Assembly: GCA_022563315.1 (NCBI GenBank)
Contig: JADFNO010000002.1
Span: forward strand, 1 to 60,153
DNA: 60,153 nucleotides
Direction: 5' to 3'
From: Planctomycetota bacterium
GTDB taxonomy: Bacteria > Planctomycetota > Phycisphaerae > Phycisphaerales > SM1A02
Both the position numbers and the translations under genes were made by a program. Below the pieces are notes generated by a model. It searched no databases. It had not been told where the DNA came from and saw nothing but the letters and a program-made list of their open reading frames with translations. Every line of letters begins with the position of its first letter. Within the stretch, counting starts at the first letter, position 1. Below, one piece after another: positions 34,381 through 49,927 of this stretch.

Positions 34381-34500
34381 TGTGCATCTGTGTTCATCTG
34401 TGGTTTCATTCGTTCCGTAGCTCTCGGGACGCTGCGCGTCACCCGCTAAACGGCGCGATTCTCACTCACTGTTCCCCCTCATGGCGCATGGCTTATCCCC
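34381..34500. repeat. Composite repeat block, forward copy
   Basis: The block runs decamers, a GGGACGCTGCGCGTCACCC unit, CTCACTCACTGTTCCC and CTCATGGCGCATGGCT. The same modules in the same order occur inverted at 39183-39303, so the pair brackets the dppC-dppB-dppA genes. Confidence 0.85.
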
Positions 34501-34632: not shown

Positions 34633-34664
34633 CCATCTGTGTTCATCTGTGTTCATCTGTGGTT
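34633..34664. repeat. Decamer tract at the 3' end of a dppC-like gene
   Basis: Three copies of CATCTGTGTT (AACACAGATG on the minus strand). The dppC-like gene reads into the tract and its stop codon TGA lies within it. Confidence 0.85.
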
Positions 34665-39097: not shown

Positions 39098-39182
39098 GAC
39101 TTTGAGCGACCTCAGCATAGCGAATCACCACTGAGGGAGGAGAAACCACAGATGAACACAGATGGGAGGAAAATGGGGATGA

Positions 39183-39303
39183 GGGATGAGCCATGCGCCA
39201 TGAGGCGGGAACAGTGAGTGAGAGCCTGCCCGTTTAGCGGGTGACGCGCAGCGTCCCGAGAGCTGCGGAGGAAATGAAACCACAGACGGACACAGATGGG
39301 CGG
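39183..39303. repeat. Composite repeat block, inverted copy
   Basis: The reverse complement of this block follows 34381-34500 module by module with only scattered differences, including the GGGTGACGCGCAGCGTCCCG hairpin core and the decamers. Confidence 0.85.
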
Positions 39304-39371: not shown

Positions 39372-39545
39372 TCTTTCTTCATTCTCAAGAACTGTGCGTT
39401 GCGGGAGTGTGACTGTGGTTTGGTGAGACCGCGGGTTACGACTGCGCGGCTATTTCGAGGTGTTGCGCCGAGGTAGATTGACCGACAACCGGGCTGATCC
39501 GCTTCCGAATCCGTGTTTATCTGTGTTCATCTGTAGTTTCATTCG

Positions 39546-46524: not shown

Positions 46525-47136
46525 ATGGCCATCCACACTGACGCGATCGCTAAGGTCTACGCGAAAAGCTTGTACGAGCTGGCTGACGATGCCGGCGGTC
46601 GCGACAAGATCGTGGAGCTTGCCGAGGAACTCGAACAGATCTGCGAGCTGGCGCGCGGTGATCGCACGTTCCGAGAGTTCCTCGCCTCGCCGATCATCAA
46701 CACCAAGGCCAGGGGCGAGGCCATACGCCGCATCTTCCACGGCCGGGTCACGGACCTGGCGCTTCGGTTCCTGTTGGTGCTCAACAACAAAGCCCGACTT
46801 CGTCGGCTCGAATCCATCAGCGCCGCGTTCGATCAGTTGGTCCACGAAGCGTTGGGCCGGATCGAGGTCGATATCTACACGCCCGGGCCGTTGGGGCCGG
46901 AGCAACTCGATACGATCAAGCAGCGAATTCAAGCTGCACTTGGCAAAGACCCGGTGCTGTACTCGTACACCGACGCGGCGATGATCGGCGGCGTGAGACT
47001 TCGCATCGGCGACCAGTTGATCGACGGCTCGGTGGCCAGTCGGCTTCGCCGCCTCCGCCAGCACTTGCTGACCTCGGGCTCCTCGGCGGTGCGCCAGCGC
47101 TTGGACAGGATCATTGAAGAAGGAGCGGAAGGATGA
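46525..47136 (+). CDS. atpH: ATP synthase F1 subunit delta
   Basis: A 203-residue OSCP/delta subunit: N-terminal helical bundle starting DAIAKVYAKSLYELA and C-terminal GPLGPEQLDTIKQRI plus the conserved DAAMIGGVRLRIGDQLIDGS, given as IGGVRLRIGDQLIDGS. It connects the b-dimer to F1. Its stop overlaps the following SIMPL gene by four bases. Confidence 0.93.
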   Translation: MAIHTDAIAKVYAKSLYELADDAGGRDKIVELAEELEQICELARGDRTFREFLASPIINTKARGEAIRRIFHGRVTDLALRFLLVLNNKARLRRLESISAAFDQLVHEALGRIEVDIYTPGPLGPEQLDTIKQRIQAALGKDPVLYSYTDAAMIGGVRLRIGDQLIDGSVASRLRRLRQHLLTSGSSAVRQRLDRIIEEGAEG

Positions 47137-47882
47137 AAACCTCCATCATCGGACTGTTCGTGTCCGTTTGCATGTTGCAGCTTGTGACTATGGCGACCGC
47201 GGATGAAGTCGACGCCGTCGTGCCCGTGCTCACAGTGCGCGGTGATGCGCAATTGGACAAACCCGCCGATGAATTGCGAATCCGCGTGGGCGTCGTGACC
47301 GAGTCGGATGAAGCGACGATCGCGCTGCAAGAAAACAGCCGACGGATGAATGATGTGATCGACGCGCTGAAAAAGACCGGGCTGACGGACAAGGAATATC
47401 AAACGAGCCAGTTTCAGATTCAGCCGATGTATACGCGAAGACCGCGTCAGGCTCCCGTGGATTGGAAGCCGAAGATCGTCGGTTACCGTGTCAGTAACAG
47501 TCTGAACGTCAAGACAAAGAAGCTGGAGCTGGCCGGGGAGCTGATTCAGGCCGCCAACGAAGCCGGGGCGAACTCGATCGACTCCATCAGCTTCGGACTT
47601 GCCGATCCGCGAACGCATCGGGCTGAAGCGATCCGGGCGGCGACGGCCAATGCGCTCACCGACGCGCGCACATTGGCTGACGCTGCGGGTCTGCGGTTGG
47701 TGCGTGTGCTGTCAATCACCCTGGATCAGGCCGCAGCCCCTCGGCCGATCCCAATCCAGCGCATGAGCGCCGGCATGGCCATGGCCGAGGCCGCCCCCCC
47801 GCCCATTCAGCCAGGCGACGTCACCGTGTACGCCAACGTCACGGTTGTATATGAGATCGCTGAGCGAAACGATGCTGACTAA
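47133..47882 (+). CDS. SIMPL/DUF541 exported protein inside the atp operon
   Basis: A 249-residue SIMPL-domain protein with a signal peptide (cleavage near ATA-DE). Family features are VLTVRGDAQLDKPADELRIRVGV near the start (quoted VRGDAQLDKPADELRI), the DKEYQTSQFQIQP block and the GYRVSNSLNVK segment. The start overlaps atpH as ATGA, so expression is coupled to the ATP synthase. SIMPL proteins are periplasmic or outer-membrane proteins of poorly known role; this position is unusual. Confidence 0.88.
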   Translation: MKTSIIGLFVSVCMLQLVTMATADEVDAVVPVLTVRGDAQLDKPADELRIRVGVVTESDEATIALQENSRRMNDVIDALKKTGLTDKEYQTSQFQIQPMYTRRPRQAPVDWKPKIVGYRVSNSLNVKTKKLELAGELIQAANEAGANSIDSISFGLADPRTHRAEAIRAATANALTDARTLADAAGLRLVRVLSITLDQAAAPRPIPIQRMSAGMAMAEAAPPPIQPGDVTVYANVTVVYEIAERNDAD

Positions 47883-48279
47883 GAAGCAACCACAGATACA
47901 CACAGATGAACGCAGTAAAGAGGTGGATAAAATCACCGAGGCGATCATCGGGTGCGCGTATGCCGTGGCCAACACGCTCGGCGCCGGATTCCTAGAAAAG
48001 GTCTACGAGAACGCCCTTGCGCATGAATTGCGAAAACGCGGACTGTTGGTCTCTCAACAGACCCCACTAACCGTCCAGTATGACGAAGTTGTAGTCGGAC
48101 AGTACGTTGCAGACCTTGTGGTTGCCGATCAGATTCTCGTCGAACTGAAGGCGGCAAAGAGTCTCGACGAGATTCACATGGCGCAATGCCTGAACTATCT
48201 TAAAGCCACCGGCCTTCCCATCTGTTTGTTAATCAACTTCGGAAGACCGAAGATTCAGATCAAACGCTTCGTAATGTAG
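47872..48279 (+). CDS. GxxExxY family protein
   Basis: A 135-residue PF13366 protein: ITEAIIGCAYAVANTLGAGF, the name-giving GFLEKVY, then ALAHELRKRGLLVSQQ, GQYVADLVVADQILVELKA with nuclease-like Asp and Glu-x-Lys spacing, and LPICLLINFGRPKIQIKRFV (each quoted within limits). The fold recalls PD-(D/E)xK nucleases, but function is unproven. The first residues are encoded by a decamer repeat. ATG 47872 lies within the preceding gene; GTG 47923 is an alternative after the repeat. Confidence 0.88.
   Translation: MLTKKQPQIHTDERSKEVDKITEAIIGCAYAVANTLGAGFLEKVYENALAHELRKRGLLVSQQTPLTVQYDEVVVGQYVADLVVADQILVELKAAKSLDEIHMAQCLNYLKATGLPICLLINFGRPKIQIKRFVM
47888..47916. repeat. Left inverted copy flanking the GxxExxY gene
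   Basis: Begins AACCACAGAT and matches the reverse complement of 48312-48340 at 24 of 29 positions. It starts five bases past the SIMPL stop codon. Confidence 0.8.
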
Positions 48280-48311
48280 GGCTCTGGATGACCTCCCCTA
48301 TCTCGCTCTTC

Positions 48312-48340
48312 TCTGTGTCCATCTGTGTTCATCTGTGGTT
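48312..48340. repeat. Right inverted copy flanking the GxxExxY gene
   Basis: Ends ATCTGTGGTT; together with the left copy it bounds a 453-bp unit holding the GxxExxY gene. It lies 22 bases before the atpA start. Confidence 0.8.
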
Positions 48341-48361: not shown

Positions 48362-49927
48362 GTGAAGATCAAGACCGACGAAATCACGTCCATTATCAAG
48401 CAGGAAATCGAGCAGTTCTCCACCGAATTGGAGATCTCAGAAGTTGGCCGCGTCGTGGAGGTCGGCGACGGCATCGCGCGCATCTACGGGCTGTCACGAG
48501 CCATGGCGGGCGAGCTGCTGGAGTTCGACACGGCCGAAGGCGCGGTCATGGGCCAGGTGATGAACCTGGAGCTGGATACCGTCGGGGCGGTGATCTACGG
48601 CAACTTCCTGGCCGTGCGCGAAGGCGACACCGTCAAGTCCACCAACCGGCTGCTGGAAGTTCCCGTCGGTGAAGGCATGCTGGGCCGGGTCGTCGATCCC
48701 TTGGGTCGAGCGATGGATGGCGGACCGCCCATCGACACCGGCGGCGTGACCCGCAAGCTCGATATCGTTGCCCCCGGCATTGCGTATCGCCAACCGGTGA
48801 AGGAGCCGTTGCAAACCGGCATCAAGGCGATCGACTCGATGATTCCCATCGGCCGGGGCCAGCGCGAGCTGATCATCGGCGATCGCAAGACCGGCAAGAC
48901 GGCGGTAGCGGTGGACGCCATCATCAATCAGCGCGGTTGGTGGGGCACGCCGGATGCGGTCGTTTGCATCTACGTCGCGATCGGCCAAAAGGCATCGACG
49001 GTAGCGGGCGTGGTTGAGACGCTCAAAGCGCACGGCGCGATGGACTATACGATCGTGGTCATTGCAGGCGCCGCCGATCCCGCCCCGATGCAGTACATCG
49101 CGCCGTACGCCGGTTGCGCGATGGGCGAGCACTTCATGTGGCAAGGCAAGGAAGGCAAAACGCCCAAGCACGTGTTGTGCGTGTACGACGATCTGACGAA
49201 GCAGGCGCACTCGTATCGCCAACTCTCATTGCTGCTGCGGCGGCCGCCGGGGCGCGAGGCCTATCCGGGCGACGTGTTCTATCTGCACAGTCGCCTGCTG
49301 GAGCGCGCCACCAAGCTCGCCGATCAACACGGCGGCGGTTCGCTGACGGCCTTGCCGATCATCGAGACCCAAGAAGGCGACGTGTCGGCGTACATTCCTA
49401 CGAACGTCATCTCGATCACCGACGGGCAGATTTACCTCCAGCCGGAACTGTTCGCAGCCGGTACACGACCGGCCATCAACGTCGGTATCTCCGTCAGCCG
49501 CGTAGGCGGCAACGCGCAGATCAAGGCGATGAAAGAGGTCGCCGGTTCGCTGCGCTTGGACTTGGCGGCGTACCGGGAGTTGGAAGCGTTCGCCCAGCTC
49601 GGCACCGACCTGGATGCGACCAGCCAACGGCAGCTCGATCGCGGCGGGCGAATGGTGCAGTTGCTCAAGCAGGATCAATACATCCCGTTCGACGCCATCG
49701 ACCAATGCATATCGATCTTCGCCGCGGCGAACGGCTTTCTCGACGATCTGGACCTCACTGCAGTTCATCCGTTTGAGCGTGACTTGTTGGAGTTCTTCGC
49801 CGGACCAAGGAAGGATCTGCGAGACAAGCTGGCCGACACCAAGTCGTTCAAGGGTCTTGAAGAGGACTTCACCGCTGCCGTGCGCGACTTCAAAGCCAAC
49901 TGGAATCCACCAAGCGGCAGCGCCTAG
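48362..49927 (+). CDS. atpA: ATP synthase F1 subunit alpha
   Basis: A 521-residue alpha subunit. The P-loop is GDRKTGKT (173-180), with Lys176 in place of the usual Gln. The arginine-finger region [13 protein letters not shown] is intact, and the beta-barrel start [20 protein letters not shown] is typical. GTG 48362 is the start. No atpG, atpD or atpC follows within the window. Confidence 0.95.

Follow-up and report, generated by a model that had tools for sequence, protein, structure and literature searches.

What is a gene of the GxxExxY family doing inside an ATP synthase operon, and what are the inverted repeats that frame it? In the window, that is, the whole 60,153-nucleotide stretch of planctomycete DNA analysed here, direct reading of the sequence confirmed what the first-pass annotation had described, a GxxExxY unit bounded by inverted repeats in the ATP synthase operon. 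The unit is 453 bp in length, contains GxxExxY as its single gene and has inverted arms of 29 bp each, identical at 24 of 29 positions. As a refinement, we found that each window arm is built from about three tandem copies of a 10-bp motif. The unit and its neighbours are arranged as follows:

47133-47882, + strand: SIMPL-domain gene, the upstream neighbour, syntenic both in relatives that have the cassette and in those that lack it
47872-48279, + strand: GxxExxY open reading frame (stop TAG at 48277-48279; domain at 47923-48276)
47888-47916, + strand: left inverted arm, AACCACAGATACACACAGATGAACGCAGT, with about three 10-bp iterations (AACCACAGAT, ACACACAGAT and GAACGCAG)
48312-48340, - strand: right inverted arm, whose reverse complement is AACCACAGATGAACACAGATGGACACAGA
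48362-49927, + strand: atpA, the downstream neighbour, with a GTG start at 48362

The GxxExxY reading frame most likely starts at the ATG at 47872, which overlaps the SIMPL stop, the left arm being translated through; the orthologues in genomes G066, G037 and G044 have an equivalent in-frame ATG overlapping or near the end of the upstream gene. The encoded protein exceeded the curated thresholds of TIGR04256 (149.8 bits; cut-off 35) and PF13366 (143.8 bits; cut-off 22), and GxxExxY and PDDEXK_3 were its only profile matches. At occupied sites the atpA leader remains beside the start codon and is similar to the leader of the empty site in G012.

Repeats of the same kind are scattered well beyond the unit. 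The 18-mer AACCACAGATGAACACAG had 10 matches in the window at up to 3 mismatches (0.02 expected) and 35 genome-wide, where a reversed control pattern had 0. Solo copies had been reported at six other places; six matches do lie outside the unit, but two of them overlap, leaving five places:

34388-34405, - strand: solo repeat copy (18-mer match)
34637-34664, - strand: solo repeat copy with two overlapping iterations (18-mer match)
39144-39161, + strand: repeat copy, half of a gene-less pair (18-mer match)
39278-39295, + strand: diverged repeat copy (18-mer match)
39521-39538, - strand: repeat copy, the other half of the gene-less pair (18-mer match)

The copies at 39144-39161 and 39521-39538 lie about 395 bp from each other as an inverted pair that holds no GxxExxY gene. 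When the solo repeats of the window were compared with G037 and G066, the repeats were rearranged and no clean empty site was found. A second interspersed repeat, CGTTTAGCGGGTGACGCGCAGCGTCCCGAG, occurs at about 33930, 34430 and 39230 of the window, beside several of the solo copies. The same genome encodes three GxxExxY genes, each with inverted arms of its own flavour; the two ends of one unit are alike and the flavours differ between units:

L001, in the pdhB-E2 operon (neighbours named by reading their sequence): flavour CCACAGAGG
the window unit: flavour CCACAGATGAA
L003, ahead of a xylulokinase-type-like kinase gene (neighbour named by reading its sequence): flavour CCACGGAGA

The first-pass annotation had taken the unit for a small mobile cassette, a reading that is supported and that extends to the whole GxxExxY family. 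Our sample comprised 108 GxxExxY loci, drawn partly from the bacterial family to which the window belongs and partly from named genomes (Planctomycetota, Acidobacteriota, Desulfuromonadota-type and other proteobacteria, Cyanobacteria, Bacteroidota, Chloroflexota, Armatimonadota and archaea). Flanks of this kind accompany the gene elsewhere too: of 96 loci, 82% had an inverted-pair score of at least 18 beside the gene, a level reached in 0-2% of displaced windows (350-1000 bp) and in 0% of the reversed control. At the gene the median score was 25.4; pairing arms with those of another locus lowered it to 11.6, and the reversed control gave 10.6. Inverted arms are near-universal in the family, and GxxExxY units carry the terminal inverted repeats characteristic of a classical insertion sequence or MITE. 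The arm motif is of the CRCNGA type in about three tandem iterations, with a period of 10 in 129 of 186 arms, 9 in 23 and 8 in 17, a distribution in which the 80 named loci lean to period 10 because they are the closest relatives of the query. Both ends had the same period in 78 of 93 units, and no such period was seen in shuffled arms. The reading frame was co-directional with both neighbours at 47 loci and opposed to both at 7. Nested inverted pairs were present at L206 and L216. Head-to-tail arrays of units of about 150-170 bp bounded by cassette repeats were observed at L222 (G026:C24) and L229 (G088:C226). A search of a phage collection gave no match, and a plasmid search returned eight records, every one classed as non-mobilizable.

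The 5' arm frequently provides the start codon (ATGAACACAGAT being read as MNTD), and an in-frame ATG lies inside this arm in 38 of 87 units, often yielding MNTD or MNAD. On this evidence the repeats might serve the gene as signals for regulation or translation start and not be the ends of a mobile unit; we hold this to be very improbable, as it leaves unexplained the inverted 3' arm, the scattered gene-less pairs and the in-place swaps described below.

The protein itself is nuclease-like. Residues D64, E74, K76 and Q88 do not vary among 42 sequences, the PD-(D/E)XK residues D, ExK and Q all being present, and GxxExxY retains this catalytic core under strong purifying selection, with dN/dS values of 0.03-0.13 in seven of the eight measurable pairs and 0.27 in L003/L058 (in the remaining pairs silent sites were saturated or there were no silent changes). 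The AlphaFold model (pLDDT 96; pTM 0.88) has as its closest PDB structures LHK-Exo, Cas4 SSO0001 and lambda exonuclease, in weak Foldseek matches (E ~1e-3), and a lambda-exonuclease/Cas4-like fold is predicted. Sequence searches gave weak Cas4-like matches alone in PADLOC (E 0.02), a single match in PDB (E 0.1) and none in PHROGs. The family is widespread, and in the open-access literature searched we found neither a function for GxxExxY nor a description of the cassette or its repeats.

Arm flavour is tied to the type of protein and not to the host. The more alike two proteins are, the more alike are their arms (Mantel r = 0.61, p = 0.001), and the arms of a cassette were closer to those of the nearest protein elsewhere than to those of the co-resident cassette in 14 of 15 same-genome tests. 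Repeat load follows the gene as well. Copies of two flavours were counted in 151 genomes of the family: the 21 that are GxxExxY-positive contained 572, the other 130 together 19. Presence of the repeats was associated with presence of the gene (16 genomes with both, 3 with repeats only, 5 with the gene only and 127 with neither; Fisher p = 1e-14, an optimistic value because genera are not independent samples), an association that persists among S23-positive and among S23-negative genomes. Two genomes of the same genus illustrate the specificity: G026, with a flavour A cassette, holds 101 A and 0 B copies, and G059, with a flavour B cassette, holds 0 A and 16 B copies. The exceptions are three genomes with repeats but no GxxExxY gene, and G009, G003 and G071, which have flavour-A repeats without a flavour-A GxxExxY gene.

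Relatives were searched for empty sites, which had been proposed as a check on mobility, and SIMPL directly precedes atpA with a short gap in G012, G023, G029, G057, G021 and G020. The cassette is present at this site in G000, G037, G066 and G044, frameshift-broken in G091 and represented by a gene-less inverted pair in G040. The insertion is therefore not fixed in all relatives, but it is common to genus g1 and part of g44 and must for that reason be old. Gene-less inverted pairs are frequent, accounting for 12 of 16 loci in G071 (several sites of this genome were left out for messy alignments).

Whole cassettes have been exchanged in place, the breakpoints lying at or close to the arms. In the pairs L002/L056 (atp site) and L001/L037 and L054/L055 (pdhB-E2 site), identity was mostly 93-100% in the flank before the unit, 47-75% inside it and 92-100% after it, whereas in the control pairs L036/L054 and L039/L056 it was uniform throughout. 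At the atp site the breakpoints fall inside the arms; at the pdh site the exchanged segment runs from the stop of the upstream gene to the start of the downstream gene, and two flavours, together with their protein types, are common to two genera. Such swaps, and pdh-site allele types that cross genus lines, would be expected if GxxExxY were a nuclease of the homing type, cutting either a resident cassette or an empty site and leaving gene conversion to copy the whole cassette, with no true transposition. This is a sub-variant of the selfish-cassette explanation set out below and not an exclusive rival to it; we think it rather unlikely as the whole account, given cassettes at many unrelated sites in one genome and scattered related repeats. 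Selfish replacement of alleles at a fixed site, as proposed here, and a predicted nuclease fold with a D-ExK-QxxxY core, as in homing endonucleases and lambda-exonuclease/Cas4-type PD-(D/E)XK nucleases, do recall homing endonuclease genes, but the cassettes involve no intron or intein, bring their own inverted iterated ends and occupy many unrelated sites.

Some gene-less copies carry the marks of an insertion sequence. Gene-less elements in g1 and g44 have CCCGGATTATTCATCACC ends and 4-bp target duplications (TTAG), and clean filled and empty sites were found for one gene-less element; at gene-bearing cassettes a clean target duplication was looked for and none was found. An element in G059 (L310; G059:C1:44000-46150) contains a transposase-like ORF, has CCCGGATTATTCGTCA ends and shows a CTAG duplication; from its sequence it is read as IS1380-like. 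Ends of this type also bound the gene-less g1 and g44 elements that contain the CACAGAGG repeat. The TTAG case may reflect IS1380-type movement, because its outermost ends match those of the G059 element, and an IS1380 transposase may move some gene-less copies. At L269, a shared 8-bp CAGCCTAC is ambiguous, because the ends resemble IS1380-like ends and a 4-bp CCTA fits equally well.

These elements are what one would expect if the arms belonged to a MITE or insertion sequence (e.g. IS1380-like) moved by a separate transposase, GxxExxY riding along as cargo whose role is cellular or defensive. Such passive carriage seems improbable to us. The CCCGGATTATTCATCACC ends are few in G000 (5 matches at up to 3 mismatches, vs 37 flavour-B copies), absent from the repeat-rich G014 and G088, and not seen at the gene-bearing cassettes inspected, while flavour follows the GxxExxY protein across phyla. 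What the system shares with IS1380-like insertion sequences and their MITEs is that some gene-less pairs in this bacterial family are enclosed by ends of that type, with duplications of 4 bp; GxxExxY itself is no DDE transposase.

A second, unrelated gene family is framed in a parallel manner. In the same genomes, genes for S23/four-helix proteins (TIGR02436) have inverted frames, mostly of heptamer iterations; 14 of 26 reach a score of 16 or more, compared with 0 of 22 displaced windows. S23 and GxxExxY co-occur in 15 of 21 cases. Iterated frames need therefore not be made by a nuclease. The S23 loci L142-L165 display inverted tandem heptamers of the types AGCNGTC, GGAGTCA, GGCTNTT and AGGCATCA, both ends having the same flavour. 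In G104, an S23 gene lies directly 3' of atpA (L178; G104:C162:9828-10154), so that in this bacterial family both cassette types have hit the ATP operon.

In Coxiella, RNase III excises the 23S rRNA intervening sequence (IVS), in which tandem GACAGAT heptamers precede an S23 ORF (PMC4990558). This precedent, the iterated inverted frames of the S23 genes and the co-directional position of cassettes in operons suggest another explanation, in which the arms pair in the polycistronic mRNA, the stem loops out the ORF as in the S23 IVS, and RNase III trims it. The two also resemble each other in layout, the IVS being a unit of about 430 bp whose one small ORF lies between inverted ends, with short tandem iterations close to the start codon (PMC4990558). 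We nevertheless judge pairing in RNA to be an unlikely explanation. Mismatches between arms showed no bias to G-U-tolerant types (126 vs 131, p = 0.80), a result that speaks against selection for an RNA stem; a stem needs neither iteration within the arm nor a period tied to the protein; and there was no Rfam match. The protein fold also differs, the iterations are of 8-10 bp as opposed to heptamers, excision from RNA is documented for the IVS and no RNA signature was found in GxxExxY units, and the window unit lies between SIMPL and atpA, not in 23S rRNA, with a GxxExxY and not an S23 ORF.

We consider it fairly probable that GxxExxY units are minimal selfish cassettes whose nuclease recognises its own ends, a RAYT-REPIN-like arrangement with an unrelated enzyme. 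Its best-supported mechanism, on the correlative basis of flavour-protein coupling and co-occurrence, would be action of the GxxExxY nuclease on the arms. The cassette, one small gene for a PD-(D/E)XK nuclease between two inverted arms, would insert between genes, preferring co-directional operon positions, and be expressed by read-through. Its protein would bind the iterated motif as DNA and cut or process the ends of its own cassette and of related repeats, after which repair would copy or exchange the cassette between sites. Gene-less pairs and solo repeats would be non-autonomous derivatives or scars, like the REPINs beside a RAYT. We count against this model the flavour-A repeats without a flavour-A gene, the genomes that have repeats but no GxxExxY gene, the S23 frames, the IS1380-like ends, the failure to find a clean target duplication at a gene-bearing cassette, the age of the atp insertion and the weakness of the Foldseek matches.

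In RAYT-REP/REPIN systems a gene lies between inverted short repeats, cognate repeats are dispersed as inverted doublets, repeat classes differ with protein types and higher-order tandem arrays occur (PMC3686654). GxxExxY shares the inverted cognate repeats at the gene and the cognate doublets dispersed in the genome. It differs in having a PD-(D/E)XK nuclease in place of an HUH/Y1 transposase, in arms of tandem 8-10 bp CRCNGA iterations without the RAYT-type GTAG/GTGG tetranucleotide and palindrome, in the in-place exchange of cassettes and in its inclusion of archaea.

The framing of GxxExxY by co-varying inverted repeats suggests a minimal mobile element of a kind not described before. More tentatively, GxxExxY and the parallel S23 cassettes may together represent an unrecognised class of minimal mobile elements with ends of short tandem iterations in inverted orientation, a protein that reads both the period and the sequence of these iterations, and in-place exchange across genera at fixed operon sites. 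The near-constant cognate framing gives GxxExxY a testable role, that of a nuclease recognising the ends of its own cassette, and offers an origin for the scattered ACAGATGAACACAG and CACAGAGG repeats of environmental genomes. If this is true, few autonomous mobile elements would be smaller than these cassettes; and should the coupling of flavour to protein reflect recognition, the cassettes would provide a natural set of matched nuclease-site pairs.
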